Shown here: in pieces, positions 1,084 through 64,000 of the stretch | Numbering within the stretch: the stretch's first letter is position 1 | Layout: each line of letters starts with the position of its first letter | Source: Cephalotus follicularis | Taxonomy: Eukaryota > Streptophyta > Magnoliopsida > Oxalidales > Cephalotaceae | Direction: 5' to 3' | Length of the DNA stretch: 64,000 bases | Assembly (NCBI GenBank): GCA_001972305.1 | Contig: BDDD01000265.1 | Span: forward strand, 362,401-426,400 | Notes under the pieces: model-generated | Told to the model about the DNA's origin: nothing | The model's input: the letters and a program-made list of their open reading frames with translations, nothing else | The model's database searches: none | Program-made: the position numbers and the translations under genes

Positions 1084-2613
1084 TGTAAGAACCGCAAATT
1101 CAATTCGTGTACATTGCAATAATGATTAATAAAATGTGCACTTATTTGAATTTAATGTCCAATTATGGCAATTTATGATTGGTGATTTACTTGGAATGAA
1201 TGGCAGTTCGTTTGGTGAAAACCGAACTTATGAAACCCTAATTTCACTCTTGACAGTCGACTGACACAGGGTATCAGTCGACTGCCTGCTGCGTGTTGAG
1301 GACAGTCGACTGCCCATGAATCCAGTCGACTGTAAATTCGACAGAACATGTGTCTGTGCAGGTGTCAACTGAACTTGGGGAGTGGCATGCTTAAGGACAG
1401 GTGTCTGGGACATGCATAAACGACTATGACATGCAAGGAGAGCCCTTGCATGTGCTCTACAACCTGCAAGCCTGCCACCTGCAAGAATCAAGAAAGAAAA
1501 GTAAGAGAAAAGTGAGAAATGACAAGGAATGAAGAGATGCATGTGAGTGAGATAATGGAGTAAATGAGAGGTGATGACTCTGACGAAATTCCAGATTAGT
1601 AAGTCTATATCATCTGTGCATAGACTAATTTTAAGTGTTGTTAAACACTAAAAGAAGAAGGAATTTGTTGAAGGAGTATTTGGGGAATTGCCTTGGAAGG
1701 TTTGGAGTTGAAGCTCAAAGAAAGAAAGCTTGAACATCTCCTCGTAAGTGCAATTCGAACCCTCTGTGTTAATGTGATGTTGTAATCCAACAGTAAGTCG
1801 TCTAGGAGAATGCTTAATCTCTATTAACATGGTTATGATTAGCATCTTCTAGGATTGAATGGTTTTTAAAATAGAACATAGCACTTGGTGCATGAAAGGA
1901 TGTAACCTCTAAATGGATTAGAAGGTTGTTGTTAGTTCCCTAAATAACCTACTGAATTACTCATGAATATGCATATACACCTACTGGTCTCTAAGAGAAA
2001 ATGAATGGAGATGGTTGATAAATGCATAAGAAGTGGTAAAAGAGAGTTATTGTAAAGCTTAATGAAACTGAGGACTTAAGCTACTGATTTGAATGGTTAT
2101 AAATGTTACTGAACCAACTGTTACTGATGCATGTACCTATAACATGCATAGATTGAATCTTCTGAAATTAAAAGGATTGATTGGTGAAAGCTTGGAAAAG
2201 TCTTTGGAAGCTTTAAAGAGAAAGATCATTGCAATTGATCTTGGGATAGCAAATTGAGGTAGGGGTAGTGTTATGTTTTGGAAGATATGATCATGCATGA
2301 CATGTATGTTAATTTGCTTTGGAAAGCTTCCGTTTATCGTTTTAAGGTTGTTATTTTACTGTTGTTATGTACTGGAATGTAATGAACGAATCATGCCTCG
2401 TTTATGATGTTTCCTTATGTTAAGAATAATTTAACTTGTAACCGCACGTAGTATGGGATGCGTGCGAAGGCTTGTAATTATATATATTCTGGCTTATTGA
2501 CTGCTTCCGCATACTGTTTTTGAACTGTTAAATGAAATGCTGGAATGTAGGTTTAATACTGATATCGCCACATATGCTGGTCAATGATGGTAACGAAATA
2601 ACGGGGTGTGACA
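1084..2613 (+). repeat. A: 3' LTR
   Basis: 1530 bp, begins TGTAAGAACC directly after the polypurine tract and ends GGGGTGTGACA, the TG...CA ends usual for the family. No coding potential beyond chance frames. Its partner LTR lies outside the window, so age cannot be read. Confidence 0.88.
1254..1332. repeat. A LTR: four CAGTCGACTG palindromes
   Basis: Perfect 10-bp palindromes start at 1254, 1275, 1303 and 1323, so steps are 21, 28 and 20 bp: two doublets 49 bp apart. They lie 170-250 bp into the LTR, the same relative place as related arrays in C, D and G. Confidence 0.85.
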
Positions 2614-3810
2614 TTAAGACTTATTATTTCATTCTTGGAGGGATTTTAGGTCTCACATTTTAATTAAACCGATCTATTAATTAATTCATTGGTTATTTTA
2701 GCCAAATCCAATTAATTACGGCTTACTTGCAATGACGTTATTGGACAAATTGTCTAACACATGCATCCGAAGTACAACATAAAACATGGTTAGGCTAGGG
2801 ACAATTCTATAGAGATTCACATGAGCCAATGTAATCACCGGGTCTCCTAGATGAACTATTTAATTCTACTTTATTACAAAGAATACCATGCATCTATGGC
2901 CTTCATCTTGGTCTTGCAACTTCCTTGATGTTCCTCTCCATCGATTCTCATCCTTTTGCTTACAAAGCTTTTAATAAAATTTACATTTAAATTTCAAATA
3001 AAAGAATCTATTATAGAGAGGAATCAAAAGATAAGAAATTGAGGTGCTCGCAGGCCACCAAATTACAAACCCAATAAAATAATAAAGCAGATTAAACATC
3101 CAAGAAAGAAATAGAAAATCTAGGTCATGTCCCATAGCCTTACCATCATGCATATCACATTCAAAAATATATCTAATATAAAATTGAATGAAAAACTATA
3201 TCCATTTTAATTTTCGATGGCTAATCGAATCATTCATGGCATTTCTCGGTATAACTCCCACTAGATCAGTGAAAATCCAGTGCCAATAGGATTACATACC
3301 AAGATTCTAAAATTCTGTACTTGTCAAGTTGAAAGCGGCGACGCTCTGCCTTAAGCGTCAGAGGTTACTAGCTAAGCGTCGACGCTAACGTTGACCCTTT
3401 TGCGTAACCTTCAGAGCTTCAAGCGAAGCATCAAACGCATATGTCCCGACCATAGCGGCGACGCTTTATCACAAGCGTTGGCGTTTATTGTCTAAGTATC
3501 GACGCCACTGTCGACACTTTGTGTAACCACCAACAACGCTTCAGACAAAGCGCCATCGCTCCAAAGTATCAAGCATCGTTGCCTACATCCTTAAGCGTCG
3601 ATGCCTTTTGCAAAGAGTCAGTGCTTAAGGTGAGCGCCAATGGTTAGCGCAATAAAAATGCCAAACCGTCAACGCTTCTATGTCCAACAGTCGACTCTTT
3701 GCGCGAAATAGTCAACTGTTAGACAGTACAGGACACAACCAGAGTTCCAAAATAATCCAAAATAGCAACCAAAAACTAAAAACAATGTTTAACTGGGGTT
3801 GATTAACGTC
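2614..3810 (-). other. I: internal region, no coding domain seen
   Basis: AT-rich sequence of 1.2 kb without a credible reading frame. Several landmarks match L's internal region in reverse complement, for example the TAGTGGGAGTT stretch (L near 53377) and GAAGGCCAT followed by GCATGG (L near 53740). Confidence 0.6.
3330..3725. repeat. I: mixed array of GTCGAC-type motifs
   Basis: At least ten imperfect copies of a motif of the form AGCGTCGACGCT (perfect palindrome at 3375-3386) lie just downstream of the primer site. The left-most part of the element's sense strand also has the CAGTCGACT form at 3688-3696 and GTCAACTGTT at 3711-3720. Both flavours seen separately in the gypsy LTRs occur together here. 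Confidence 0.7.
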
Positions 3811-3822
3811 GCTCTGATACCA
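3811..3822 (-). other. I: primer-binding site
   Basis: On the minus strand it reads TGGTATCAGAGC, the standard plant LTR-element site complementary to the 3' end of initiator tRNA-Met, just inside the 5' LTR. It fixes the orientation of I. Confidence 0.8.
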
Positions 3823-4275
3823 ATACTAAGAATAAAACTGTGATTATAGTCATTTTAGGCATTAGGTAGACATGCTGTTCAATTTTAATTTTCATTAAAG
3901 TGGCTGAAACACAATGAACACCCCATAATCTCACACCATAAACAATTATAAACAACCTAGGATCGACTAATCAACACACCAATAAAAAAACCAGTTATAT
4001 AATCATATAGAGAAGGATGGAGTTTATACCAAGCAACCAACTCCTTCCTTCAAGTATCCGTTCTCAGACTTGAAGCTTTCACTCAGGAACGAACAGCAGC
4101 AGAATGACCAATGTAAAACAATTCCTATATTACTAATCCTAGTCTAGGATTAATACAGGGAATGTAGAGCTCAATGCAAGCAATACACCACCTATAGTAA
4201 TGAATTTGTGGTGTGTTTCGGTATTGCTTTCTCTTTTCTCTGTTTTGTTCTCTGAGAACCAAAAACCAGAAGTTT

Positions 4276-4289
4276 TCTTTCTCTCCCCC

Positions 4290-4322
<33 letters not shown>

Positions 4323-4324
4323 TC
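4276..4324. repeat. (CT)n microsatellite
   Basis: About 49 bases of almost pure CT repeat within I's LTR. It produces spurious Arg-Glu-rich reading frames on the minus strand. Confidence 0.95.
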
Positions 4325-5055
4325 TAGTGTCCAGGTTCCAAAAAACCAACTCATCTGTATAACACGTTCTAACTTCCTCTTCTTATCCCCAGAGTTTACT
4401 CCCCAACAATAGGATGATAATAACATTGAAAATCAGTTATCAGGATTTGATTCCCATGAATGCAAATCCCTTTTTCCATATTGTTACCTTGACATATGGA
4501 ATGGATGATAGAAGAAATGTCTTAACGTGTTATATTTATTTAGCTGCCAGCTACCATATTGGAAGTCTAACAACCAATACGTTGATATCCATGTTGCAGC
4601 CTATGAGGAGAGAAATAAATAAAAATCCAATTATTATTTATTACTTAATAAGAGAATTAATAATCTAATTATTAATTAATACCAAAATCATATTAGTATA
4701 TTACGTCAACTAACCAGTCACGTAACATCACTAATACACCACGAAATAACATGTGCTATCACACGTTATAAAACAATACGATATATGTATCTAATACATA
4801 TACTTGTGAGGCGAGACCCGACAGTCCGGAATTAATCAGTAACGATGGTGTATTACTAAGACGCCTTGATCTTAAGTAAAATTACCATAAATAGTCATTG
4901 ACTACTTTTAAGACCCTGAACCTATGGCTATCATATTCCAGGTGTGTAAATTAATCCGATCATGGCCTAGGTAAGGATACGTGTCAACCCTAGATATGTC
5001 GGTATCTATAAATCTGTATTTTACCATCATGACTATCGAAAAGCCTTTCCGGAAA

Positions 5056-5060: not shown

Positions 5061-8000
5061 TGTAACACCCCCTATTCAGAACTGAGAACACTCCCGATTC
5101 AGGATCGGTGTGTCACACAAAACAGAGCTAAAAACATGTCAAAAATCTTAATCTTAATCCAAATTAACATAATACTCCTTCGAATATACTAACAATTGAA
5201 AGACTCGAGTTCAAAATCAAATGCTCCTCTAAGAAATTTAAATCTCCAAGTTAAGACGTGATGGTCTAAAGACAATCTGATAACATAACATAGTCCGAAA
5301 ATCATAGTCTGAAAATCATATAATTACATTACTAAAAGAATCATCTCCTAAGAAATGCTCAAGTCAAAGGTGTTCCTCTCATCACACATGCCCATGCTGC
5401 CCCTGAAAACCTGCCGCATGGAAAACAAAACGCGATTGAGCAAACCTCAGTACGAATATAGAATCATAAAACAGTTTACGAACAGTTTATGAAACAAATC
5501 AATTACGAAACAACATAATTACGAATCAAAACAGATACGAATTGAAACAGAACGGTTTACGAACAAAACAATACGTAACCAAAACCGTATCCGAAAGAAG
5601 ACAGTTTACAAAACGAAACAGTATTTGAAACAAAACAATATCATGCATAATACAGTATCTGAAACAAACACTATACGATACAAAACATTTTACGAAACGA
5701 AACACTTTTCGAAAAAGAAAAGAACAATTTGCGGAACAAAAGAAAGAAATTTCCGAATAGTACGAAACAAACAGATTATGGAACAGAATAAACAGTAAAC
5801 GATAAACGATAATTTGAAAGCAGTAAGATTTCAAAAGTTAGCTTGGAATAGAAATCTTAAGCAATAAATTAGTTTAAACATTCTTTGAAGTCACATATGA
5901 ACTTTCATAAAAATCAAATCCATAACTTTCGAAACATACACGAAACCTTTCAAAACATAAGTTCCATACTGAGCCACATAACGTATCACATATCGAAATA
6001 CATATAGGCAATGGAGTAGCCAATTCCACATGCCAAGTAGAATTGAAGTGTATGGCACTACACATATCAATTCTCATAACATATCATATCACATATTGCA
6101 TAACTCATCACGTATGCCATATAATAGAATCGATTCATATGCCTCTATCATACATAACGGATCCATAAATCCACCTCATGAGATTTATTCATAACATAGA
6201 GAGACACTGTAGACTAATCACACCGATACAGAAGTGTCATGTCTCCGTGCCAGGCCTACGACATGCCCATGGTACGCCCCATAGGTGGGTACAAATACTC
6301 AGTATTTATTCATTGACAAAATATTGATTTATCATAATCAATTTAAAACACATAAAATATGCTTCTTCAAGACATATTCAAAAATCGTCATCTAGAGATA
6401 TCATTTACATAACATACATTTCATAATCGGAGTATCAACTCATTTATTTCCCACCATAAACGAGATGATCGTAACATATAACATATCATAACTTACATAT
6501 AAAGTCAAGAACATTAAATTCGTAAAAGACTTCATTTTCTGGAACATATCAAATTCATAAACATAACCGAGTTCATAAAACCGAAGGAACAAGCAAAACC
6601 GATTTTCATTCGATAAAACCAGATGGCCAAAGAGAGATAGAAATCCGTACATCTCATTAAAGCAAAACAGATTCAATTCAGATAAAACCGAATGATAACA
6701 AAAACGAAGAATCTGTATTTTATTCGCAAAATGAAACTGAATTTATACTCTAATAAAATCGGTAAGAGTGTATCAAGAAACAAAGATCCGTACTTCATTT
6801 ACTAAAACAAAACCGAATTTATCTCAACAATACCGAAGGAGATAACAAGGAAACAGAATCAATGCTTTATTCATAAAAGTAAAATTAACTTTTTACACTA
6901 ATAAAAACAATAGAGGGGTATCAAAGAACGAAACATTCGTACTTAATAACATATTCCAAATTCATTTCAATAAATCTGATAGAGAAACCAAGGAAAGGAA
7001 ATCCATACCAAATACAGAATCTGGAATTATCTCAAATAAAATGAGAAAGATAGCCAAGAAAGGACATCCGTACCTCATCCAATCACCAAAACAACCTCAA
7101 GAATATATATCGAGACTTCTCTAGACCGATCCTTGGTTGTTGCAAATATCTAACAGAAATAAAATCGTTCTCATAAGGACTTGAAATAAAATCAGACCTC
7201 AACTCATGGGTCATTGTACATTGATCATGACCATATAAGATAATAATAGGTTTGCTAAGTCCAATTTGCAGAAATCACATCTAAACATAATTTTGAATTC
7301 ACCAAATTCAAGCGATCGTCCAGGTCATTCAATTTCGAATCATAAAACCAGTTCAGCTCATAATATCGTAGAAACATCTATAGAAATACATAATTCAACA
7401 GAAAACAAAATTTAACGGAGTAGAATTCAGAGTTTACCGAAAGCATTCAGAATTGAGCACAAAGCCATAATCACACTGCGGAACTGGAATGGATCACATC
7501 TATGCGGAGAACGGAGTCAGAAAAACTGTCTGAAATGTGTCGTCGGAGACTGCCGGAGCGTGGGCTCACGCGCTGCCGCTAGCCGGCGCGTGTCTGTCAC
7601 GCGCGGTCGCCTGTCAGATGCTGGAAAGGGCGGATCTGAAGCGTTGGAGGTCGGGGATCACATATCCGGGGCGCGTTTGCCATGGCGCCGCCACATTTGG
7701 TAGGAACGAACACATTTGACTACGGTTGACTTTGCCACTGATCTGCGTTACCGGCGTTGCCTAGGGTCAGGGCTGGTCGGGTTCGCTTCCCCTTGACGCC
7801 AGGAGTCTGAATATGAGCTTGTCTTGTCGTGCCGATCACCGGAGATAGAGATATGGTGATCAACAGTGGCGGGGAGAGAAGACGTCATGCACGCCAAAGG
7901 GACCGTTTGCCGGGGCGGGGATGGCATCCGGTGTGCTCGGGAGGTTGTGGCGGTTCGACCGGTACCCTCGCCGGCGTCATATCGGTACCGACGCCGATGG

Positions 8001-8326
8001 CAGAGGCTGAATATGAGAGAGAATGGGAGAGAGGATGGCGGGGAGAGAGAGAGAATGGGAGACAAAACAAAGTTAAATAATAAAATAGGGTTTTTGATTT
8101 TTAAAATGTTGAAAATGGTTTTAACACTTAAATAAAAACCAAAATTGTTTTATTTATTCATAGACTTAATATCAAAACCCACTAGGCTAAGGCTAAAACC
8201 CGCTTAGCCCATCCAAGATTAAAACAAACGAAAAATGGGCAGTCCACACACCCAAAAAAAAACAGCCCACACGAAACAGATTGAAAAGCCCGAAATTTTT
8301 ATACAGAAAAAAAACGAGATATTACA
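5061..8326 (-). repeat. B: left LTR (3' LTR of the minus-strand element)
   Basis: 3266 bp, plus-strand ends TGTAACACCC and GATATTACA. AT-rich for most of its length, with a GC-rich block at about 7500-8060 that corresponds to early LTR sense sequence. Short frames in that block are not kept in the sister LTR, so I do not call a gene. Confidence 0.92.
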
Positions 8327-8363: not shown

Positions 8364-9211
8364 TAAACAACTACTAACCTAAAACAAACAGATTATCCCA
8401 ACAGAACACACCATATCTAAAAGCAGTATGGATAACCATTACAAACCATACTCTTAGGATTTCCCGAAAATCGGGTATGATGTATTCATTTATCGGACTC
8501 CATGCCACCTGATAAACCACAGTTTATATGTTTGGAGATCAACTCTCATATCTCATCACAATCTACATGCTAGGGCTCAGCCCGCACCAGACTACATCAC
8601 AACTAAATCAAATATATCATTTGCACAGGAAGTACAATCCTTTCAATACTCTCAATGATGGGCTTAATCATATCCAATACTATCATACGCATGCGAAAGA
8701 TAATCATGTCAAAGAAATAATCAATTGAGTACATTCTAACTCTTATAATCTCCCAAAAATTGGGCATGTAGTATTCGTTTATCAGACATATGCCCCCTGT
8801 AAAGAAAACACAATTTATATCCACACTCCCGAAGGAGGAACAATCAGTTATAAATGGGCTCAACCCTCAGTAAACCACAATTTAAATCCGAATTATCATT
8901 CCAAACTCTCAAGTATGAACTCATGCATATCCACTACATCAACACACATATCTCATAAGCACTACCACATGTCGGCAGGTCGATAACTGAATAAACATAT
9001 CTCTTAAGTTATCTCCTATACATAACAAATCTTATAAATCTTTACAGTTTAGTTTATGAACAAAAGGCCTTCTTTACAAATCATATAAACAAATTCATAT
9101 CCATTATCATAAGCAATAAATGTGTATAGAGGTGTAGCAGATATATATATAATATCGATAATATGAGATGCATACCTAGCATAAAATATGTGAATAATGC
9201 CATATCATATC
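8364..9211 (-). other. B: internal region, left part, non-coding with a diverged direct repeat
   Basis: No credible reading frame. A block around 8450-8540 (CCCGAAAATCGGG hairpin, then a match running to the ACCACAGTTTAT area) recurs in diverged form about 290 bp further on, at 8740-8830. C interrupts at 9211 after its target sequence ATATC (9207-9211). Confidence 0.6.
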
Positions 9212-10526
9212 TGTCACGCCCCCGTTTCGGTAAGACAACAATTAAGCGGTAAAGGCAATTAACATACAAATTCAGCTCATGCAAATATCATAAAATTTAA
9301 ACTTATAAACAGACATCAGTTGCAGAAGCATAAGGTTCATCACCTGAAAACATGTAACGTGCATCCCATACTGCACGCTACCCAATACAAGTCTATCATT
9401 GTTAAAAGCCCTCCAAACGGAGCGTGATCACAGTACAATACCAAATCCCATTAGTAAACAAAACCGTAAGTACAATACATTGGTCCTTAAACAAGCTCGG
9501 TTTATTACAAAACATGAGAAAGTAAAACCAATAACAAAACATCATAACAACTTGTTCTTTGTCCCTGCCAGTCCAGCACCGGTCCACTGCATCAATCTGT
9601 AAAGTAGGGGGTTAGCCTTTGTCCTCACTCGGATAAGTCATAAAAGTAGCTCAGGATCAACATTAGATGCATGTCATGTAATGTATGCATAAAAGATGCA
9701 GTGCAGGAAATACCAGTTTATATATATATGAGAAATATATATATTTTAGTAGTACAGTAAAATATCAGTGGGTACATATATAAGAAAATATATGTATGCA
9801 AGAACAGTACAGTAGTGATCCGGCCAGGATCACATCCACAGTCACAGTAATGTCCGAAAAGGACCAACAGGCAGTACAGTATGTCCATAAGGACCACAAC
9901 AGTCAGGCAGTATATGTAACGCCGCCAACTCCTGGCCCCACGCTACACTCCCACTCCGGTCTCTACTCCAGGCAACCGAGCGAGGCAACAATACAGTACA
10001 GTGAGTCACCCAGCCATACTCCTGGCCCCTAGGTCAACCCTACCACTAGCCGGCGCTGGCAGCCTCCGCCATACAACCAGTGGCTCAAGCACAACCACAT
10101 AGAAATTCAAAGAGTAAACAGTGAATCAAAACAGTAAACAGTACAGTAATCAGTACAGTAGTGATCGTTTTGGATCGACAATAGGTAGTTCATTTTCAAA
10201 TACTCCTGAAAGTAATAAATATTTGAAATATGTAATTCCAGTAATAGAAATACCTTTGAACAATCAGTAGTGTAAATCGTTTACCAGTTCGTTCAAAAAT
10301 ACGTTATTAACCAATACATATTTTCATACTCAAAATAACACATTCCGAGTTCACATATGCATTTCTAAACATCACAACTTTAGAAATCATAAACGATTTA
10401 CAAACAGTAACCAAACAGGCAGTAAACAGTGTATGTGCAATGCATACAAATGCTCTAATGCATCCTAAGCGAAATCGGGATCGTCGCGCTTTGTTTTGAG
10501 CAAAAGGGAACCAAACAGTAGCTTGG

Positions 10527-10700
10527 CAGTCGGCTGGATTCTCCACCAGTCGGTTGTTCTGAGAATTCAGTACGTGAGTAGTCGACTGGTTCCTTTTACC
10601 AGCCTACTTGTTCATCAGGCAGTCGACTGTTATCCTTAAACAGTCGACTGTTTAGGTTGAGTAGTCGGTTGTCGTCCTTTGACAGTCAACTATTCTGGGA
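10527..10700. repeat. C LTR: inner array of CAGTCGACTG-type motifs
   Basis: Doublets start near 10529/10549, 10581/10603, 10622/10643 and 10664/10685, all 20-22 bp apart. Perfect CAGTCGACTG copies alternate with variants such as CAGTCGGTTG and CAGTCAACTA. The sister LTR has the same array at about 26570-26755. Confidence 0.8.
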
Positions 10701-11504
10701 AACAGTTGCTTGAAATCCGAAATACACCACTTAAGCAGATCATTTCAAGCATCCAAAATACGTTCTCAAGGCAGAAAATCATCATTCAGTCCACCACAGT
10801 CTCATAGAACACAACAGTAGCATGCATCTTATCCAGCAATCCAATACCAAGATAAACTCAACATGCATGTACATAGGTTCAACGATTCTCAACAGTAACA
10901 TGGCATGCATAAAACTAGTAGTAATCATGGTCATATCAATTGAGCATCGTGGCTTATATTAGCAGACAACCAATTGCATAACATGTAGTAATATTGAACT
11001 CAAGATACAATCATAACTTCCCCTACCATTTGATTCCAAGTTAGGAATATGTAAGTCCACCTCTTTGTGCTCCAACAGTGACGTTTTGAGCTCCCCAGAA
11101 GCTCCAACTCCAGTCCAGTAGCTCGAATTTGTCTCTTCCAAGCTTTCCTTCTTGGTTCCAAAGTTGGACAAGAAAACAAACCAAACTCTCTCCCTCCTTT
11201 CTCCTTTCAATCTTACTGTGTTTTCCTCTCTTGCATGTACTGGGTGAGAGAGGGACGGTAAGGGAGAGTGTTTTTATGCCATCTCTTCTCCTAACCCGTT
11301 GCATGGCACTAAATGCCATTATTTCCCTTCCATCACTTGCATGCCTCCACACATGTCACTCCTACCCTTCCTATCAGTCTTTGCAGGTTCCAGCAGTAGT
11401 GTGCAAGACATACACATTTTATCTATCATCATATGGCGCCTGCAAGATGCTCCTGTCAGTGGCTGCATGTGATCTCATCACATGCAGTAGAACAGAGCAC
11501 AAAC

Positions 11505-11665
11505 CAATCGGCTGTCCATACCCAACAGCCGGCTGTTCGCCTGACAGTTCGTTGCCATGTGGCTCAACAGTTGGCCAGTCGACTGGTTCATTCCACCAGT
11601 TGACTGTTCCCATACGCAGTCAACCAGTCGGCTGGTCTACTGTACCAGACGACTGTTCATAGTGT
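11505..11665. repeat. C LTR: outer array of CAGTCGACTG-type motifs
   Basis: Several copies of (C/A)AGTCGACTG and variants with GG or TG cores lie 190-345 bp from the sense start of the LTR. The sister LTR copy is at about 27545-27705. Confidence 0.78.
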
Positions 11666-11850
11666 ACTTACTAAGTAAGGTGTACTTACTAAGCAATCAC
11701 ACTTCTAAGTACTTAATTGATTTAAAATCAACATCATCAGAGTTTGGGAAAACATCATCAAATTCGGAAAAATCCATCATTTTATTAATTCCAGAAATAA
11801 GGTACCTTTACGTTGTAAAATTACAACACATGAAATTTCCGGGCGTTACA

Positions 11851-16366: not shown

Positions 16367-16485
16367 GTCATTGTCACGCCCCGTTTTCCCGTAGACACAC
16401 ATAAAGGTGATAAAGGCAATTAACATATAAATCCAGCTTATGCGAAAAACGAAGAAAAAAATTTAAACTTATAAACAAGATATCA

Positions 16486-16845
16486 TGTAATGACCCAAAT
16501 TCCATGTAAGATATTATTTATGGAAAATGATTGCTATTGTGTATATTGGCAGATAGTTTAAGGGACCCGTAGTATGACCCTACGCTCGGGGAGTATGGGG
16601 GTTCCGCTCCCCGGTGAGCAGACGGGGGGTCCCGCTGCCCGGACAGCGGGCGGGGGTTCAGGGGGCAGCGCCCCTAGAAGAAAATTTTTGGCTAAGAAGT
16701 TGAGAAGGAAAACTGTCCCAAAGCGCCGACGCTTTGGTAGTAACGGTCGACGCTTTGGGTAACGGTCGATGTCCAAATTTTAGACGTCGACGCGTTGAAG
16801 ATTAATGTGTCAGTTGACTTGGACGAAGACTTAAAGCGTCGATGT
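16486..16845 (+). mobile_element. E-type LTR block inside D's left LTR
   Basis: Starts exactly with the E LTR sense terminus TGTAATGACCC and matches the reverse complement of 47816 down to about 47460 in the solo E LTR, including the GC-rich tandem hairpins (about 16606-16665) and GTCGAC-type motifs from 16719. It leaves E sequence inside a TGTCC shared with D. Confidence 0.8.
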
Positions 16846-17494
16846 CCACAAAGGACCACAACAGTCAGGCAGTATATGTAACGCCACCAACTCCTGGCCC
16901 CACGCTACACTCCCACTTCGGTCCCTACTGCAGGCGACCAAGCGAGGCAACAGTACAGTACAGTGAGTCACCCAGCCAACTCCTGGCCCCTAGGTCAACC
17001 CTACCACTAGCCGGCGCTGGCAGTCTCCACCATGCAACTAGTGGCTCAAGCACAAACACAGTACAGTTCACAGAGCAACACATAGCAAACAGTGAATCCA
17101 GGCAGTAAACAGTGCAGTAACAGTACAGTGGTGATCGTTTAGATCGACAACAGGTAGTTCTCTTTTCAAATATTTTAAAAGTGATAATATTTGAAAATAT
17201 ATTTTTCAATAATTGAATTACCTTGAACAAATCAGTAGTGTAAATCGTTTATCAGTTCGCTTGAAAAAACGTTATTAACCAATACATATTTTCATACTCA
17301 AAATAGCATATTCCGAGCTCACATATGCATTTCTAAATATCATATCTTTAGAAATCATAAACAATTTACAAACAGTACACAAACAGGCAGTAAACAGTGT
17401 ATGTGCAATGCATTCAAATGCTCAAATTCACCCTAACAGGAATCGGGATCGTTTCGTATCGTTAGATAAAGGAACCTCCAAACAGTACCCAAAA

Positions 17495-17840
17495 GAAGTC
17501 GATGTCTATCCAAAAGGCGTCGATGTCTTTGTCCATTAACGTCGATGTCCAAGTCCTTAGTGTCAGCGCGATCTGCTGTCTAAAGACGTCGATGTCCATC
17601 ATACGCATCGATGCTCAAGGTCTGGAACCTTAAAACGTCAGCGTATTGCTTACAGCATCGACGTGCTAAGGTGGGAACCTTAGGCGTCGACGTGTAACAC
17701 GTCAAAACCCAGATAGGTATCCTAAGTCGTCGATGTCCTTCCAAAGACGTTGATCCGTTTCACATCAGTAACCAAGCAAAAGACCCAAAGACATCGATAA
17801 TATCAAAAGGCGTCGACGTGTTTCGTGTAACAGTCGTCTT
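17495..17840. repeat. D LTR: inner array of GACGTCGAYGTC motifs
   Basis: A dozen or so imperfect copies of (G/A)CGTCGA(C/T)G spread over 340 bp, 1.07-1.41 kb from the sense start of the LTR. G has a matching array at the same depth. D's right LTR lacks this segment. Confidence 0.75.
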
Positions 17841-18569
17841 CTTCCTCACGACATAATAGACAGTGGCCATTACAAACCATATCCATGCACAATAACAGGT
17901 AATCAAGGCAGTAAACCCACATGCAAATACACATCACATATCTAGCATTTTATGGCATCAATCCAGTGAAAAAAATCAACTCAGTAATCATGCATTTCAT
18001 ACACTAAAACCATAGACCATGCATGAATATTAATCTCAAGGTTACAGTTATGGCTTCCCCTACCTTTTGTTTCACGTTAGGAACTGGAAAGTCCACCTCT
18101 TTTCGTTCCAAACTGGTCACGACAGCCTCTAGGTCCCTCCCGTTACTGCATGCCACCAGTTCCAAGCTCCAAGCTCCAACCAAGTTCAATAATGGCTCTC
18201 CTTCACTCTCTGTTTTCTTACACTGGTGTTTTAGCCGAACCAGGGATGAAGAGAGGAGGCGTTTTATGCAAGTCTCACATCCCTCTTCCCTCTCTGGCCC
18301 GTTGCATGCATCTCATAGGCTCCATTTCCCATTCTTCCCTCTTTCCCAGCTCCGCCTCACTTCTTCTGCAGGAGCAGACGTTGAAGGTGGCACACAGCCT
18401 GCATGCACACCCAAGTGTCATGCCCTTCCTTCCATTCTAGCATATGCATGCCTGGCATCAAGCTAGCATGCTCAACACGTATCGTCCACGTCCCAAGGCG
18501 CCTGCAAAAGGCCCTAAAAAGTTCCCCTTTGCACGTTATTTGTCAGCAGAGTAACGTGCCTGACATTCG

Positions 18570-18725
18570 ATGTTAATGCATCGACGTCTTCTTAAAAGAC
18601 GTCGATGTCTTTTCCCTTTTTACACGAGGGCGTCGATGTCCTCGCCTGCATCGATGTGCATGTGCATGCAGTTACGTGCGCCCCTTGCTTCAAGGACGTC
18701 GATGTGATTAGAAAGGCGTCGACGC
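18570..18725. repeat. D LTR: outer array of GACGTCGAYGTC motifs
   Basis: Includes the extended form AAAAGACGTCGATGTCTTTT near 18595; in the sister LTR (24970-25115) the same site is the perfect palindrome AAAAGACGTCGACGTCTTTT. Lies 180-340 bp into the LTR. Confidence 0.82.
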
Positions 18726-18944: not shown

Positions 18945-18949
18945 TAAAA

Positions 18950-23594: not shown

Positions 23595-23597
23595 CGC

Positions 23598-25504: not shown

Positions 25505-25508
25505 CTGC

Positions 25509-51093: not shown

Positions 51094-52744
51094 TGTTAGA
51101 TATAGTGACCCGACAAGCCATCAGATGGGTTGTTACATTATATCTTACCATGTATAGAACAATCTTATTCTTATATATATGATGCGTGCTAAAATTTGTT
51201 ATGGCTATATCACTTGTATTTTATCACATAATTGAAGTAGTTTAATTATTACCTACTTATACCAGTGATGCCATGACATAAGGTTGGATGCCTGGCATGG
51301 AGGCTGTGAGACTGGTTACCTTATTCCTTATGTCAAACTTGTTCCAAGTCATAGGTTCACAGTTTACCAAAGGTCCTAGTAATGATCAGATATTTTAGCC
51401 ATTGAGGTACTATCTATGGTTGACACATATCCTTATCCTAGACCTCAATCGGGCCAAGTATGACAAGGGATTATAGTGAACACGAACCGACAACTTAGAA
51501 AATCTAGGGTTAATGAGGTGTGTAATAAATTATGTGGAAATTAATTAGATTAATTTTTCTAGATGGATAATATTAGATATTATTCCGAGAGCATTTAAAT
51601 GATCTGGGATCATTTAGAATGGCTAAACTGGACCCGAGGGGTATTTTGGTAATTTATGAACACCTCTCATTTTAACCAAGATTTTAAAGGGTCCCTGCCT
51701 TATAATGATTAGATCTTTAATATGTTGGACATATTAAGTCTTGGTGTTAAATATAGGTTGTGTGGATTTTACATTTTGTGGAAACACATATGTTTGATCT
51801 TACTCAACCAATATTCGAAGGATACACGAGATCACTAAAAGAGTTAGACTCTTTATGCTTGACTGGCCAAAACGCGTCGATGTCTTTTACAAAGACGTCG
51901 ATGCCTTTATCTGATAAAGACGTCGATGTCTTTTAGAAAGCATCGATGTGTTTTTAGTGCCACGTTGCATAGGCGTCGACGTCCTTGGGAAGGCGTCGAC
52001 GTCTTTGAGCAGAACGTGCAACCTGTGCACGACCTCACTTCGTGGGCACTACTTCTCTCACATCCTTAGCCGGTTTCTTTTGATTCTACACGTTTTAGAA
52101 ACGTGGGAATCATGGCTTCGGACTCCCAGGGAGTGAAGTCCATGATTCTAAGTGAATGGGAGATTGGGAGAGAGAATTGTAGGCTGGTTATAAGCATTTC
52201 TGGAGAAAATGGAAAACAAGGTTGAGACATTTTTGCTGGGCAATTGACCTCAAATTCTTCTCTGTATGTGAGTGTTCCTTCATTTGATAAACACCAAGCA
52301 AAGGCTTATCTATGGTGGATTGATTATTGACTTCATTGGTCATAATCAATACTCCTTTTCTAAGCTAAGTGAGAGAGAGTGTGGGTTCAAGCACTTTGAT
52401 CTTGCTGGTTGGATTATTTGCTGTTCCTGAGGCTTGGAGGAGATCGAAGGGAATCTACTTCAAGCTTGTAGTGGCAAAGAACGAAGGAGCCAACACCCAC
52501 TGGTATAAACTCTTGGTCCTTCTTCCTAATACCATGCTTGTGTGTCACCATTGGATGCAATGGTGACACCAATTCAATTTAGTAGATGCTGTGGTGATCC
52601 ATGTGATCTGTGGACATTTCATTATGGATTGGTTTATGTTTTATTGGGTGTTCTTCCGCTGCATGATTGTATGTTTAAAGTTTTAATCTACACCCTACAC
52701 ACCTTAGTCCATCAATGACATTGGACTCGGTATATCCGATAACA
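51094..52744 (+). repeat. L: 5' LTR
   Basis: 1651 bp bounded by TGTTAG and TAACA, with the primer site four bases downstream. It includes a GTCGA-type cluster at 51876-52000 (51876, 51897, 51922, 51942, 51975, 51995; steps 21, 25, 20, 33, 20). Confidence 0.8.
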
Positions 52745-52760: not shown

Positions 52761-53909
52761 ATCCCACATCATCCTTAATTGAATATGTATGCCTTAGATG
52801 ATGTACTGATTAATAGTTTAATCATTGGATATGTTTTTGTGATCAAACTAAATTTTCTAAGTGCCCTAATGAAAATTGCATGAAATTGAATTTCATTGAG
52901 TTTTTATGCTGGGAATGTTGTTTAAATGTGTTTAGAATTAAGTTTGGAACATGCATAGTGCATTTCTGAATGCCAGAATGGTATATTCCATAGTCTAAAC
53001 CATTGATTTCAGTATTTTTCAAAATGCAGAAAATGCCCAGGGGGCTATGGACGTCGACGTCTTTGGTAAGACGTCGATGTCATGTTCAAATTCCCAGGCT
53101 AGACATCGACGTTCTTGATAGACGTCGATGTCTGGATCATCTTTTGTGAAACGCGTCGATGTTCTTGGTAGACGTCGACGCCTTTTTAAACTGTTCTTGT
53201 AAAACGCATTGATGCTCTGTTTTTGCATCGACGCCTTGTTCATGTTTACCCAGAAAACACGTCGATGCCTTTGGTAAGGCGTCGACGTCTTTTATAAAAA
53301 AAAAACTGTTTTTTAATAAAATTGGATTTTATACATTTTGGCACTTGGAAAATTAAAAATCATTGCTTGATTTAGTGGGAGTTTGGTCAATTAATAATCA
53401 TTGAATTAAATTGTGTAATTGGTTATCATTTATGGCATTTGTTTTATTTGTGGTTTTATTATTTTGGATATAATATAGATCTTATGCACAATGGATGGCC
53501 CGAAAAGGACTTTGACCTAGTTAATGTTTTCTTTGTGTTAATGGATTTATTTATTTATTATCTTTAAAGGTCTGTAATAAGGTGTCTGCGTGCATCATTT
53601 ATTTTTCCTTACTTTTATTATTTCTCCTTGTAATTTGTAAAATGTATTTTTTCCTTTTGAAAAATGTAATGTTCTTTTTGTAAAAGAAGACCATGCAAGG
53701 TGAGATAGAGGAAAGGAGAAATGAAGTACAAGATTTTTGAAGGCCATGTATGCATGGTTAATGTTGTAATAAATAGATTTAAATCATTACACCTAGGAAG
53801 ACCTAGTAATGACTTTGGGCTCAAGTCATTACTAATTTTGTCCTGGCCAATTCATTGACATATTTTAGAAATATGTCCAAGGTGCATAAGATAATCGTCT
53901 TGCATGATA
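52761..53909 (+). other. L: internal region with regular GTCGA array, non-coding
   Basis: No reading frame with a known domain. A run of five doublets at 53053/53073, 53105/53124, 53155/53174, 53208/53227 and 53261/53281 has within-pair steps of 19-20 bp and pair-to-pair steps of 50-53 bp, while the sequences between pairs differ. Confidence 0.8.
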
Positions 53910-56327: not shown

Positions 56328-59054
56328 CGTAACGCCCGGGATATTCGTTATTGTAATATTTCGTTTTAAGATGTAATCTTATGATTGAATTAATGAAAAT
56401 ATCGGAGATTTCAACTTCAATGATGTTTTCCAAACTCTAAATATTGTTTTTGGGAAAGGAATGTGTATGTTAAACTAAAACGGCTCAGTTTGGGGTAAAA
56501 GCGTCGACGCCTTTGTAAAGACGTCGATGCCTATGGGAACAAAGGGCGCACGTGAATGCATGTACATGCACGTCGATGTAGACGAAGACATCGACACCCT
56601 CGTATGAAAGAGGAAAATACATCGACGTCTAAGGAAGACGTCGACGTCTTTGAAAAGAATATCAGTCGCGTTATGCACTGACAGAATAACATGCAAAGGG
56701 ACAACTTTTGAGGCATCATCCAGGCATCTTGACATTCACAAAGCGACGTGTTGAGCATGCTGGTGTGTTTCCAGGCATGCTCCAAAATGTGTCCTTCACC
56801 TAGTGCATGCAAAAAGGATTGCCATCTTCATCTGCAACCTGTAGAAAGGGAAAGGAAAGGAACCAAAACAGGAAGGAGAGAGGAGAGCACGGGTGTGTAT
56901 GGGTGCATGTGAACCAAGAGAGAAGGAAAGGATTCCTACCAGCATAAAACACCTCTTCCTTCCCTTCCTTCTCAGCTAAACGCTGTGAGAAAGAAAAAGG
57001 AAAGAGATCAGAGAGTTGGGAGAAAACCGGAAGGAAAAGTGAGAGGGATTCGACCATTGTTGAACCTTGGAACTCCTGGGATTGCAACTGTGGACGAATC
57101 TTGGAGCTACTGAGACCGAATTCTTGGAACACAAAGATGTGGACTTTCAAGGTTTCTAACTTGAAACCATAGGTAGGGGAAAGTGGTGAACTTTATACAT
57201 GCATTTTGAGTTTTAAGATAATGAAATGCCATTGATGAATTGCATGTTAATGGGTGAATTAAAATCCTTGGATTTGTTGTTATGACTGCTGTGATGTACG
57301 GAGTAACCATGCATGTGTAATTTACATGAATATTCGAATTGGCTTGTGTAAAGGATGGATTGGTAATGTCTGGTGTGTTAAAACCATGGAGATGACGTTC
57401 TGGGCTGCATAGGCGTCGATGCCTACATAAAGACGTCGATGCCTTCGTGTGTGAAAACGATAGACGTCGATGTTTTGGTAGAACATCGACGCCTTTTCTG
57501 GAAATCGCAGAACCTTAGTGTTCGTTGTGGACGGTGAAATGCCTGCCTTTGATTGCCTGACTTGTTCATGAATTGATATTTGGTTACGTATTTTGATAAC
57601 AAGTAGCACATCTTACACGGTGAGAGGATGAGATTGCTTGTGTGAAGGTTTAAGGGTCAGATTCTTCCCCCTGTAATCAAGGTTTGTGAACTGATACCTC
57701 CTGGTATCATGAAGACATCGACGTCTTTGGAAAAGCACCGATGTCTTTGTTCCTAAAATGCCTGGGAATAACTACACGAAGTGTTGGCGCCTTAGAGTAA
57801 ATACGTCGACGCCCAGGGGATAAGTGTCGACGCTTATTCCCCTGTTTGAAAAGGTTTTACTCGAATGGGACCCGTTAGACCCGAAACAACTCTAGAAACG
57901 ATCCTAGATGCATTCTGAGCATGTGTTTGCATTGTTACTGAACTGTGAATTGAATTATGGTTGATTGCTAAAAAGTGTTAACCATTTTGAAAAGCTTGCA
58001 TGATTATTATAATCATTAATTGTACGAAAATGTATATTTGCCATATATATATATATATATTTTCAAATGACTGGGGAAAGTATTTTCCAAAGACGGTGAA
58101 GTGTTTAAAGGATTGATTATACAATCGAACTGTATTGTTTTAAGTTTTAAACCTATCACAACCTGAGAACGGAGTAATATATTTTAAACAAATATATTTG
58201 ATCAAGTAATTATATTTTATTGCTTGACTTGTACTGTATGGTGTTTGTGCTTGTTGATTAATAGCTGCTGTGCTAGTAACCTGTTGATTGTTTAGCCGTC
58301 TTGCTAAGCAACCTGTACGGAGGACTTGCCTCAAACCGTTCGCAAACCGGGATGGGGTAAGAGTGCATGACGTTGGGGCCAGGAGGTGGAGACGGTCGTG
58401 ACGTCTTGTTTGTCTGGTTCCTTTTGGGACATACTTACTGCTTGTGTTGATGTAGCCTTATGAGGTTATACCTGTATTGTAAACATGCATATACTTTGCA
58501 TATGTATATACTGCGATATATATACACTGTACCACATCATGATGCATTCATTCATGATACTCATTATCATATACCTCGAACTGCATTTATGAGTTTATTC
58601 ACTTAGCCGAGTGAGGACAAAGGCTAATCCCCTACTGTAACAGATTGATGGAGTGGGATTTGATATGGAGCACGCAAAGAGACTTAAGGAGAAGACTGAA
58701 TTGTTTCTCTATGATTATGTTATCTGGATTAATGAACAATGATTTGTTAATTGGATTATTGTAACGTGGAATTTATATCTGTCATGTATTGATGGATACC
58801 GTGGTTTATTTCATTTCGTACTGTATTATCTCGCTCCGTTTATGGGCGATCGACAATGATGTTGGGTTTTTATATAAACATTTTGGGTATCACGTAGTAT
58901 GGGATACGTGATACATATTTAAATTAAGCTTATTTCATGTTATTGCTTCCGCTATTGAAAGTTTTTGTTTTTACGTAAAATCGCATAAGCTGAATTATGT
59001 TGGTTGATTGCTTTACCGCTTAATGTTGTCTCGATATGGAAACGGGGTGTGACA
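56328..59054 (+). repeat. G: 3' LTR
   Basis: 2727 bp, from CGTAACGCCC to GGGGTGTGACA, followed by TAGCA. It preserves the pre-insertion site of the solo E LTR and all three GTCGAC-type arrays. Confidence 0.93.
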
Positions 59055-60681: not shown

Positions 60682-62211
60682 TGTAGGTCCACTAATAGCA
60701 ACCTAGAGGGAGGTGAATAGGTTATGGGGAAAATAAAACCCCTTTTTAGATTTTAATGATCAAGATTAAATATTCAGTTTACTCCAAACAATTGTAAGCA
60801 ATCAAATAAAACAAATTACAGGAATGTAAAAGAGTAAGGGAAAGAGATGGCAAACAAAATTATAGTGGTTCAGCCAAATGTGCCTACGTCCACTTTTCCA
60901 AGCTGCACTTGAGGTTCCACTAGATTGTAATCCCTCGATCACAATCCCAAACGGTTCTGGATTTTTACAAGATCAATCCTAACTTGGATTTTTGTGAGTT
61001 TAATCCTAACTCGGATTTTTGCGAGCTAAATCCTAACTCTGAATTCAGGTACTAATGACCAGGTCTTACACAAATATTTTCAGTGGTATTGTGTTTGTTT
61101 TGTAACCTCTTAAAGTTTTGAAATCGAAACAACAAGGCTCAAAAGTTATCAGAAAATATAACTTGCAAAGATAACTCAAAATAACTCTAAGAAGGCTGGT
61201 TTTTCTTTCTCCAGTGTTGATGCTTTTCTTTTGTTGTTTTTCTTCACTTGATTCAGCTTCTATTTATAGGCTTCTTGTTGAATTTGACCGTTGCTTTCAT
61301 CAAGGGCGCGTTGCAATCATTTATGGTTAATTCTACACCATTTCAGCATCTTCAATTTTTGCAGATTTTGTGTCTGGCTATCATTGGCATTGACGTGTAC
61401 GAATGGCGTTGACGTCTATCTCTGATTGCGTTAACTCCTTTGGCTCTTCACGTTGACACCAATACCTACTGTTCGATTTTTGCTTTATTCATGTTGACGC
61501 GTATGGATGGCGTTGACGCTAATGTCATTTGAGTTGACTCCACTTGCCTTGTGCGTTAATGTTCAAGTCATTCTCTGATTTGTGCTTTCTTCTGCGTTGA
61601 CGTCAAAATATGGCGTTGACGTGTATCTCAACTGCGTTGACACCAATATATCTTCTCGTTGATGTTTATAGTCACTGTCTGAAATTGCACCTTTTGGCGT
61701 TGACGTTTTCCTCATGGCGTTGACGCTAATATTGCAATTCCCAGCACGTTGACGAGTATAATCAAGGCATTGGCGTAAATCATCTCGCAAAGCCTAGAAC
61801 ACATGCTTAACTCCAGTACGTTGACGCCTATGATCTAGGCGTTAACGCCAATATGTCTGTTCTGCATATTTTGCTTGTTTTTCACTACTACTTTACTTGT
61901 ATGTTTTATTTAAGCATTCATTCACATTAACAAACATGTTAGGACCTTTGTTATCATCAAAACCAAGATTGTAACATACAATGTCAACAAAGTTTACTTG
62001 AATGGGGAGTGAGAGATAAGAGAGGGGAAATGTTTTCCCTTTTTTTAAAGGAAAACATTTTTCTATATTTATATAAAGATTTTCCATTGACTGAAAAATA
62101 TTTTCCGTTGACTTTTTTTCTAAAGGTTATCAAACACGGGAAAATGAGGAAAATATTTTCCTCCAAACAAACGGAGCCTAAGTTTTTTTTGTAATCCAAG
62201 ACTTAATTTCA
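60682..62211 (-). repeat. K: 5' LTR
   Basis: 1530 bp; plus-strand ends TGTAGGTCCAC and TTAATTTCA. A highly regular array of GTTGAC-type motifs fills 61389-61845. No gene seen. The 3' LTR is outside the window. Confidence 0.82.
61385..61850. repeat. K LTR: 103-bp higher-order array of GCGTTGACGC motifs
   Basis: Core starts at 61389, 61408, 61430, 61452; 61493, 61512, 61533, 61555; 61596, 61615, 61636, 61659; 61699, 61719, 61748, 61769; 61820, 61841. Groups of four repeat every 103-104 bp in the first four groups, with steps of 19-23 bp inside most groups. Confidence 0.85.
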
Positions 62212-62214
62212 TTA

Positions 62215-62248
62215 TGTAGGTCCACTAATAGCAACCTAGAGGGGGGGT
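62215..62248 (-). repeat. Start of a second K-type LTR
   Basis: About 34 bp matching the plus-strand start of K's LTR (60682-60715) with one mismatch, three bases (TTA) after the end of K's LTR. M interrupts it. Either a tandem LTR or a neighbouring K copy. Confidence 0.75.
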
Positions 62249-62963
62249 GTCACACCCCGTTCCCAGAACAACAATAAAAGTGGTGGCAATCAACATATAA
62301 ATCCGGCTTATGCAACTTACCATGAATTTAAAACTTTCCATAGCCATTAACAACTTGCGGAAGCATTTAAATATAAGCCGAATTAAAACGTAACATGCAT
62401 CTCATACTACATGCTACAACAATAAACAACATCAAAGTTAACTGCCCACAAACGGAGCGTGAACAATATACATCAATACATAGATTCAGTTATTACAATG
62501 ATCCATTAACGTTTCTCAAAAGTAAAAACAGCATAAAACTCCATTCGCTCCACGGAGCTCAACGGTAACAACCCGCTGCATCAACCTGAAATCAATCTGA
62601 AATTGTAGGGGGTTAGCCTTTGTCCTCACTCGGCTAAGTACAAATACAGTTCGGTTTCAATGATAATGCATGTCATGTATGAATGCACAGTGATGCAGTA
62701 CGGTATATATATATATATATCAATATATACATATATGTATCTATATATGCATATTCACAGTAAAGGTGCAACCCGTTAGGGCTACATCAACACAATCACG
62801 GTCATGTCCTCAGCGGACCAGTCACAATCATGTCCTCAAAGGACCGAATAAACCATCAGTTATGCCTCAACGGGCCAACAATCCAGTAATACATGTCACA
62901 ACGGACAAACAAACCAATACGATCAATCAATCATGTCACCACGGACAACACTCTATGCGGGGA

Positions 62964-63334
62964 TGCTTCCACTCTGTGTTTAGCACCCGGTCACTTCCAC
63001 TCTATGTTTAGCAACCCGGTTACTTCCGCTCTGCGTTTAGTAACTGCCACAACAATCAATCAGTCACTCCAGATATGCTTCTACTCTGTGTTTAGCACCC
63101 GGTTACTTCCATTCTATGTTTAGTAACCCAGTTACTTCCGCTCTGCATTTAGTAACTGCCGAAGGTGGGAGTCCCTGGCTACTTCCACTCTGTGTTTAGT
63201 AGCCCAGTTACTTCCGCTCTGCGTTTAGTAACCATAATATGGGAAACCCTAGCTACTTCCACTTCGTGTTTAGTAGCTAACACATATGAACTCCTAGTTA
63301 CTTACACTCTGTGTTTAGTAACTAATATGGAATT
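62964..63334. repeat. M LTR: tandem repeat of about 28-29 bp with spacers
   Basis: Ten or so units of CTTCCACTCTGTGTTTAG followed by CA(A)CCCGGTTA, some separated by 15-25 bp inserts. Short frames across it are chance. Confidence 0.8.
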
Positions 63335-63761
63335 CCCATCACAGTCAATCGATCAATAATGCTAACCGGCCACGAGTTGGGAAAGCACATGGCTAACCGT
63401 CCCGTGATGCTAGGTAAGCTCAACAATCAATCAATCCAGTCAATTATGTTTCAAGTAGTCTATATTTTCATAAACGTTTGAAATCATATCCATACATATA
63501 GATGTATACAAAAAGGTCCTTTCCAAAACAGTCATCTAGTAGTTTATATAAAATAAAGTACTTGCCCAAAACATATTTACTCAAAATATGTATCAATTCT
63601 TTGAAATCTTCTTTCAACCTTTGAAATATAACATTTCATACAAAATATTGGTTATAACAAAACCATAAACTCATTGTCTAAAATGATAAACACTTTAGCA
63701 ATTATAGACATTTCAATCCATAACAGTATGCAATGCAAACATATGCTCAAAATGCAAACGT

Positions 63762-64000
63762 GCTCTATTCGCGTCAACATGTACAATATAGGCGTTAATG
63801 TTAAACCCAGTCACTTAAGCGTCGCCGCTTAACTCTTAGTGTCAATGCTTTCAACCATAAACTTTACGCGTCAACGTCTCATCCCTTTGGCGTCGATGCT
63901 CTGAGGTAGGAACCTCAGGCGTCAACGGCACACGTGTCCATTCTCACATACAACGAATCATGGCGTCGACGTTTCCTATAGGCGTCGGCGTTTATCGCGA
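63762..64000. repeat. M LTR: array of GCGTCRACG motifs
   Basis: Doublets at 63773/63794, 63821/63841, 63870/63892 and 63965/63985, plus a single at 63921. Within-pair steps are 20-22 bp, pair-to-pair steps about 48-51 bp. Confidence 0.75.

Follow-up and report, generated by a model that had tools for sequence, protein, structure and literature searches.

Palindrome arrays in gypsy LTRs

The window, that is, the whole stretch of 64,000 nucleotides analysed here, contains several LTRs of Ty3/gypsy retrotransposons that carry arrays of short palindromes built around a GTCGAC core. The repeated motif is a palindrome with dyad symmetry, of which the array-bearing LTR stretches hold 4 to 14 sites each, and the motif type is uniform among the arrays of one LTR in families A, C, D and I/E. 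At the left end of the window, the family A gypsy pol ORF (3-1037) terminates 46 bp upstream of the 3' LTR (1084-2315; homology to other copies stops at 2315), in which four CAGTCGACTG sites with a spacing of 21-28-20 form an array on the plus strand (1254-1332), 173 bp from the LTR start. Arrays of the CAGTCGACTG type also occur at 10579-10650 and 11576-11626 in the family C gypsy LTR (9211-11850, minus strand), with corresponding arrays at 26625-26696 and 27622-27701 in its partner LTR (25508-27896, minus strand). The family D gypsy LTR (23597-25297, minus strand, left end inferred) has an array at 24967-25114 with a spacing of 21-31-18-48-20, the first site of which lies 186 bp into the LTR, and three RCGTCGAYGY-type arrays on the minus strand between 16744 and 18725 (16744-16845, 17496-17819 and 18578-18725) are taken as a rearranged left copy of this family. 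Three more RCGTCGAYGY arrays (43864-44010, 44778-44857 and 45080-45198) are located in the gypsy LTR segment I (43692-45543, plus strand), and its sister copy E (56329-58167, plus strand, 95% identical) has arrays at 56501-56647, 57413-57492 and 57715-57833. Four groups of sites are listed without strand: a six-site RCGTCGAYGY array (51874-52002, spacing 21-25-20-33-20), a nine-site array (53051-53288, spacing 20-32-19-31-19-53-34-20), GCGTCGAYGY-like sites at 63868-63972 that are followed, beyond the window, by a 21-bp doublet (64035 and 64056), and a loose array of GCGTCGACGC-like sites (3375-3716) without an 18-22 bp RTCGAY doublet.

LTRs with arrays adjoin a gypsy pol that has RNaseH, H2C2 integrase and SH3_Tf2-1 domains and a Chromo match that falls below its cut-off. 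In family D, as in family A, pol ends 46 bp before the 3' LTR, which in neither family leaves space for an additional gene at that point. Of the six array-bearing gypsy LTR types examined, among which I and E are sisters, five have an array that begins 173-227 bp into the LTR, and in the sixth (at 71994, outside the window) it begins 1,252 bp in; for A, C, D, I, E and K, the distance between LTR start and first site is 141-227 bp. No RTCGAY or GTYRAC doublet was found in the LTRs of family B (5061-8326, plus strand; partner 28836-32122, TSD CCCTA), used as internal negative, or in those of family H (34524-35718 and 42122-43352), in agreement with the original prediction that these two families lack arrays. 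The family tally given there contradicts itself, since nine families with arrays and three without do not make eleven.

Palindrome arrays in copia elements

Arrays are present in both superfamilies, as had been proposed, with family K as the sole, probable copia case within the window; the elements that carry arrays and encode copia domains all lie outside it. The family K LTR (60793-61989, minus strand) probably belongs to a Sirevirus-like copia element, as suggested by the PPT/terminus of a related LTR just beyond the window, which is Sirevirus-like, and by a 112-bp flank match (74%) to a copia array. Its GTTGAC array (61406-61855), which precedes a TATA-like box, differs in kind from the others by being directional: the segment 61380-61860 contains 12 GTTGAC, 0 GTCAAC and 2 GTTAAC. 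Same-direction GTTGAC doublets likewise prevail over opposed ones (28,820 vs 7,305), with a milder bias in reversed controls (2,211 vs 776).

In the C655 copia element the array starts 1,309 bp into the LTR. K and one of the two C655 LTR copies have a TATA-like box downstream of the array, and C655 has two sites beyond this box. TATA-like sites of the gypsy LTRs lie roughly 300 to 1,900 bp past the first array and vary between copies, so that proximity of array and promoter is shown only for copia. The Sirevirus-like C21 LTR pair (2272-2982 and 7235-7966) has sites and no doublet. An extra ORF with Pfam PF20167 follows pol in two copia elements, in one of which, C21, an array block (46286-46542) sits between the RVT_2 pol and this ORF, a putative envelope-like gene.

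Spacing and helical phasing

The window contains 42 GTCGAC, 11 CAGTCGACTG, 6 GCGTCGACGC and 2 GCGTTGACGC. Because 28 GTCGAC are expected under a 4th-order background, the enrichment is merely 1.5-fold and the signal lies in the arrangement of the sites rather than in their raw count. Spacing was analysed in a 264-kb set from three contigs, in which 117,208 of the 264,000 bases were masked as aligning to an earlier stretch. In this masked set, 37 RTCGAY pairs are separated by 18-22 bp, against 3 at 6-17 bp and 4 at 23-29 bp. Local dinucleotide shuffles produced a mean of 0.23 such pairs at 18-22 bp (maximum 3 in 200 runs), and jittering of the sites, which keeps their clustering, a mean of 8.8 (maximum 19 in 2,000 runs). 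Among 6-mers with at least 15 occurrences in the masked 264 kb (strands pooled), AGTCGA, GTCGAC and CAGTCG are, in this order, the top three for 19-21 bp spacing.

The same peak is seen in the whole genome, which has 849,481 GTCGAC sites that form 174,792 pairs 19-22 bp apart. For each bp of spacing this gives 43,698 pairs, about 95 times the value of approximately 457 calculated for random placement from the number of sites, whereas the 490 pairs per bp at 6-17 bp are close to chance. The reversed control word CAGCTG is also elevated at 19-22 bp (1,783, roughly 13 times what is expected for this word at random), and part of the spacing preference is therefore not unique to GTCGAC. Beyond 23 bp, distances follow a 10.2-bp period with a power of 20.5, where jittered sites reach 6.8 at their 95th percentile. 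Second-order RTCGAY distances in the unmasked window include 26 pairs at 48-53 bp, 7 at 31 bp and 2 at 41 bp; the 31-bp step recurs in RCGTCGAYGY arrays (20-31-19) and a 28-bp step in CAGTCGACTG arrays (21-28-20). The arrays of spaced GTCGAC-core palindromes originally described are therefore real and larger than noted: their doublets form a sharp peak genome-wide (19-22 bp) and in the masked set (18-22 bp), in the latter far above shuffled sequence, and the 41-53 bp class between doublets is present.

Conservation and descent

When the window copy of the family A LTR is compared with seven other copies, substitutions amount to 1/280 in the palindromes, 26/273 in the spacers and 181/3,691 in the remaining LTR stretch (Fisher, palindromes: p = 4e-5 vs the rest and 9e-8 vs the spacers, with copies that are not independent). 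Variability in the spacers is twice that of the remaining stretch (p = 0.003). Spacers are also varied in the array listings, whose rows were chosen for intact cores. Where D is aligned with I and E (two alignments), the core is 83-87% identical against a background of 64-65%. Neighbouring units resemble each other beyond the core as well (0.48 vs 0.39 identity at outer positions), indicating that local duplication contributes.

Descent was examined in 31 arrays defined by RTCGAY doublets; K and two C655 LTR arrays lack these and were compared separately. A clustering without motif masking, which lumped 27 of the 31, was superseded by one with motifs masked. With 250-bp flanks, 9 of the 31 arrays, both motif types among them, share diverged flanks, so that the arrays at gypsy LTR starts go back, at least in part, to a single ancestral segment in which the motif type later changed. 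With 600-bp flanks and single linkage 21 of the 31 chain together, which leaves the number of independent origins uncertain. The copia arrays compared stay outside every gypsy group with 250-bp flanks, and 600-bp flanks yield a single short match (37 and 56 bp). Some of the gypsy arrays are thus related by descent, and the copia arrays compared have at most short flank matches to them. Descent from one ancestral LTR segment in every family, named originally as a refutation, applies in part, to the 9 arrays with shared flanks.

Possible function of the arrays

The sharp spacing, the helical phasing and the conservation of palindromes relative to spacers favour an array read by a protein, as originally suggested. 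The arrays would be cis-regulatory sites in retrotransposon LTRs, read as doublets by a dimeric and probably host-encoded protein, a reading to which we assign a probability of roughly 0.6 from sequence analysis. A symmetric dimer would bind each 10-18 bp palindrome around GTCGAC, and the working unit would be two palindromes 20-21 bp apart, i.e., two helical turns and on the same face, on which dimers could sit side by side and cooperate. The protein would most likely be a host transcription factor, or a few paralogues, driving element transcription from U3; the flanks that differ among families (CA..TG, GC..GC, AC..GT) could reflect different paralogues or drift together with a single one. 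The copia array between pol and the extra ORF lies where there may be a second promoter. Protein binding, host origin and activation are what this reading would add to the motif, spacing and phasing observed.

The original prediction knew of no described name for such arrays, yet a near relative exists in the palindromic "repeated motifs" (RM) of Sirevirus LTRs (PMC2829016), and the best reading is that the arrays probably work like these. RM boxes are palindromic and multicopy, occupy the upper half of the LTR from 200-400 bp after its start, upstream of the TATA box, and recur ahead of an envelope-like gene (Bousios et al., 2010, PMC2829016); a minimum of 8 per element is used in that paper. 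The arrays described here share the dyad palindrome, the many copies per LTR and, in one element, the second cluster ahead of a putative envelope-like gene. The grapevine RM CGGTCGACCG even contains the GTCGAC core (PMC2829016). However, RM boxes are called Sirevirus-specific, with a CGG-CCG signature and Tnd-1 as an exception (PMC2829016), and the present arrays differ from them in core (CGG-CCG is absent and GTCGAC is flanked by CA/TG, GC/GC or AC/GT), in superfamily range, many being in Ty3/gypsy rather than copia LTRs, and in strict phasing. A search of the main text of PMC2829016 gave no account of the spacing between RM boxes. Maize Ji, Opie and Giepum have a variable, palindrome-rich regulatory LTR part (Bousios et al., 2016, as cited in PMC5311732); these families are copia, and here palindromes are in gypsy LTRs too. 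A text search of the literature for CAGTCGACTG gave, among the matches listed, no title on plant transposons, and no gypsy LTR case was found in the open-access literature searched, a weak negative. Palindromic LTR boxes now extend past the Sireviruses, their supposed limit.

If this reading is correct, about 175,000 exact doublets and like arrays in two superfamilies would mean that a large share of the retrotransposons answers to one kind of DNA reader. Such a reader could explain concerted bursts of elements, and raises the question of whether the host controls the elements through it or the elements exploit it. That one protein system reads phased GTCGAC doublets genome-wide in gypsy and copia, with a code converged on or traded and a factor that is either a host regulator exploited by the elements or a protein that some elements provide in trans to all, is a rather doubtful proposal.

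It is unlikely that the arrays serve anti-silencing, in which a transposon-encoded protein would bind them and remove silencing marks, as VANC does on VANDALs, which are DNA transposons. Sirevirus-like elements could supply such a protein in trans from an extra ORF, and the PF20167 ORF after pol in two copia elements, with an array directly before one, would suit this, as would the single motif type per LTR in A, C, D and I/E. Targets of VANC are also dense arrays of a short motif in non-coding transposon DNA that change in concert (PMC5735166). However, DNA binding by the PF20167 product would have to be assumed, gypsy A and D lack room for an extra gene between pol and the 3' LTR, and the element-encoded VANC recognises, as these sources describe it, a non-palindromic motif, YAGTATTAY, arrayed in one orientation (PMC5735166, PMC10398659), unlike the helically phased palindromes found here.

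Recognition by a host repressor or the small-RNA machinery, the arrays being retained because they lie within needed regulatory DNA, has a similarly low probability. In maize, the palindromes of Sirevirus LTRs are described as hot spots for small RNAs within a variable region (PMC5311732), and the family A spacers do vary more than the rest of the LTR, but a site serving silencing only should erode under selection and the palindromes are the most conserved part. Very unlikely is a structural role, in which two palindromes would form a hairpin or cruciform at the RNA or DNA level: at a distance of 21 bp, two equal palindromes could make a 10-bp stem, and their complementarity, equal within sites and between neighbours, does not decide the matter, but a fixed loop does not predict phased steps of 31, 41 and 51 bp, and the GTTGAC doublets run mainly in one direction (12 to 0 in K), though the reversed controls have a milder bias too. 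A functionless by-product of tandem duplication or shared descent, which some 19-22 bp tandem units (TRF) and the common flanks could suggest, is highly improbable given cores that persist while spacers differ in family A, phasing that extends past the main peak, and the copia arrays compared, which stay outside the gypsy groups at 250 bp.

Candidate readers

For a regulatory site read by a host dimer, the doublet offers a direct bait in pull-downs of the factor. The bZIP and W-box resemblance originally pointed out is unsupported: the two main motif types share GTCGAC, not ACGT or TTGAC, GACGTC is found in one type and TTGAC mainly in K-like arrays, so that neither bZIP nor WRKY is indicated as the common factor. 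No known plant factor was found to fit all motif types. A lead is the CBF/DREB family, of which we take GTCGAC to be a site. Stress-activated maize elements are described as carrying DREB/CBF motifs (PMC11656987).

Spacing and phasing of the palindromes

The window (C265:362401-426400, in a 1.577-Gb assembly) is dense in nested LTR retrotransposons, whose gypsy pol frames match the Pfam domains RT_RNaseH, Integrase_H2C2 and SH3_Tf2-1, with a sub-threshold Chromo match. Together with the genome size, these families suggest a plant. The paired GTCGAC-core motifs are present where the original prediction had placed them. Because the raw count of GTCGAC is only modestly high (42 observed, 28 expected under a fourth-order model), chance has to be judged from spacing. 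This was done in 264 kb in three blocks (the window plus 200 kb of fetched sequence), in which any stretch aligning to an earlier one was masked, 117,208 bases being removed as repeat copies. The 194 RTCGAY sites left after masking form 37 pairs at 18-22 bp, 3 at 6-17 bp and 4 at 23-29 bp. For the 18-22 bp range, 200 local dinucleotide shuffles gave a mean of 0.23 and a maximum of 3 pairs, so that the sharp spacing originally proposed holds against shuffled sequence; random shifts of at most 15 bp per site, under which the clustering is preserved, gave a mean of 8.8 and a maximum of 19 in 2,000 runs. Of all 6-mers with at least 15 occurrences in the masked set, AGTCGA comes first, GTCGAC second and CAGTCG third in 19-21 bp spacing.

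A period of 10.1 bp fits site distances of 15-110 bp best, and one of 10.2 bp the 139 distances outside the main peak (power 20.5; jittered sets have their 95th percentile at 6.8). Steps of 20-21, 31, 41-42 and 50-51 bp recur, and the sites therefore tend toward one common DNA face; the 28-bp step of CAGTCGACTG quartets is out of this ~10-bp phase. The two main motif types are CAGTCGACTG, spaced 21-28-20 or 21-28-21, and RCGTCGAYGY, spaced 20-31-19 and also forming longer chains. Across 66 paired sites of the masked set, information extends six bases past the core on each side, giving an 18-bp palindrome that is A-rich at its left end and T-rich at its right end. Arrays like that of K, a probable copia family of the window, are built of GTTGAC, with 12 of 12 sites of one array in the same direction; genome-wide, 28,820 GTTGAC pairs are same-direction and 7,305 opposite, the bias being milder in reversed controls (2,211 vs. 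776).

General base composition does not account for the pattern, since six further LTR pairs, examined in all 12 copies, have no RTCGAY or GTYRAC doublet at 18-22 bp. These include families B and H, correctly predicted to lack arrays, and the pairs C21 28731-29619/40170-41045, C655 40332-41283/47501-48444, C655 58013-60640/61651-64285 and C21 2272-2982/7235-7966 on two further contigs, the last of which is Sirevirus-like and has unpaired sites.

Genome-wide counts

GTCGAC occurs 849,481 times in the assembly, from which a random expectation of ~457 pairs per bp of spacing was computed by hand. In counts that take in many copies of each family, and in which one start may count once or once per spacing, there are 5,884 pairs at 6-17 bp (490 per bp), 174,792 at 19-22 bp (43,698 per bp), 6,205 at 31-32 bp (3,102 per bp) and 218,599 over the whole 6-36 bp range. 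Among the first 100 pair places listed, 49 are spaced by 21 bp and 20 by 20 bp. Pairs of CAGTCGACTG exactly 21 bp apart, with at most one mismatch, number 107,643 (reversed control, 293); triplets of the 21-28 type number 9,336 forward and 9,271 reverse (control, 22 and 22), and those of the 20-31 type 2,645 and 2,608 (control, 4 and 4). Against a motif-specific reading, the reversed control word CAGCTG (231,366 sites) forms 1,783 pairs at 19-22 bp, ~13 times its own expectation, so some of the spacing preference is common to other words; at 6-17 bp it forms 1,043 pairs (~2.6 times). A 13-bp pair, GTCGACTCGCTGAGTCGAC, recurs in many contigs (first places C1:172867, C2:1440783 and C4:59333) and is probably a separate repeat family.

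Conservation of the palindromes

Family A (3' LTR at window 1084-2315) was compared using the best 8 of 41 matches, the first being the window copy, taken as reference, and the second its partner LTR. In the seven copies compared, a close set (95.8-99.1% identical), substitutions amount to 1/280 in the four palindromes, 26/273 in the spacers and 181/3,691 in the rest of the stretch, in line with the earlier claim that sequence between motifs changes freely. CpG in methylated elements is expected to mutate fast, and the conservation is notable because each palindrome holds one. Family D (23597-25297) is 64-65% identical outside the sites to its relatives I (43692-45543) and E (56329-58167), compared with 83-87% in the six core bases and 72-76% in the six bases that flank the core on either side. 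In family A, the left LTR (window -3602, C265:358798) leads directly into a gypsy pol reading frame, and the likeness of left and right copies stops at a common LTR point (window 2315), which is also the limit of homology to other copies.

Position and descent of the arrays

The first paired sites lie at similar distances from the gypsy LTR start: 173 bp in A, 227 bp in C (9211-11850/25508-27896), 186 bp in D, and 175 bp in both I and its sister E. Outside the window, the LTR at 71994 has no doublet until 1,252 bp after its start. C, I and E have additional sites ~1,090-1,500 bp from the start, and four A copies (L003, L004, L006 and L007) have extra CAGTCGACT sites 1,130-1,160 bp past the position of the first site. 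These extra sites lie beyond window 2315, the limit of homology with the window copy, as confirmed in L003 and L004.

Descent of every array from one ancestral segment would explain the pattern without a shared reader. When 31 arrays were grouped by 250-bp flanks with motifs masked, 15 groups resulted, the largest uniting nine arrays of both motif types, with related flanks and differing motif type and spacing. Two arrays treated as copia on account of neighbouring gag, rve and RVT_2 frames, C265 -10224 and C21 43861, form a group with each other, and C21 46286 is a singleton; at neither 250 nor 600 bp does any of the three cluster with gypsy arrays. In separate tests with 250-bp flanks, K (60793-61989) and the two C655 LTR arrays had no match among the gypsy arrays. 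With 600-bp flanks, K matched the flank of C21 43861, and one C655 copy aligned to the array at window 53053 in two stretches, of 37 bp (89%) and 56 bp (80%). Together, the masked-flank grouping and the separate matching indicate that the arrays near the start of gypsy LTRs go back, at least in part, to a common ancestral position and that their motifs were replaced later; no such origin can be clearly traced for the copia arrays. The C and D LTRs (9211-11850; 16372-25297) share parts at 86-88% and differ elsewhere, including in motif type, a mosaic that suggests possible exchange of U3 pieces between families.

Among the copia elements, K, whose array lies upstream of TATAAATA, resembles Sireviruses, judging from the PPT and terminus of a related LTR. 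The LTRs of the C655 element (block 54.7-69.7 kb; Retrotran_gag_2, rve and SH3_retrovirus) carry GCGTYRACGC sites, and in one of the two copies these lie upstream of a TATA-like box. The RVT_2 element of the C21 block (43-49 kb) has three PPT-like runs and arrays at 43861-43972 and 46286-46542, the latter between pol and a PF20167 ORF. Extra ORFs after pol matching PF20167 (putative plant transposon protein) are found in copia elements at 3886-4839 and 45388-45939 of the C21:100001-180000 block.

A possible mode of action

Sharp doublets, helical phase, palindromic form, conservation against free spacers and placement in the LTR fit candidate binding sites for cooperating dimers. The proposal of a protein-read array is thus consistent with spacing, phase and conservation, and the protein would probably be a host factor. 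In gypsy families A and D, pol ends too close to the 3' LTR for an additional gene to fit in between, which would make activation by a host factor the likeliest use. Of the systems already described, the Sirevirus repeated motif comes nearest; it is reported to have a CGG-CCG core and to be absent from classic retrotransposons (PMC2829016). The GTCGAC arrays would work like it but depart from it in these two features, and they are therefore not classed as members.

Tandem repeats without GTCGAC also occur in the window, with units of 71 bp (41951-42148), 30 bp (28220-28409) and 29, 45 and 76 bp (62966-63330).
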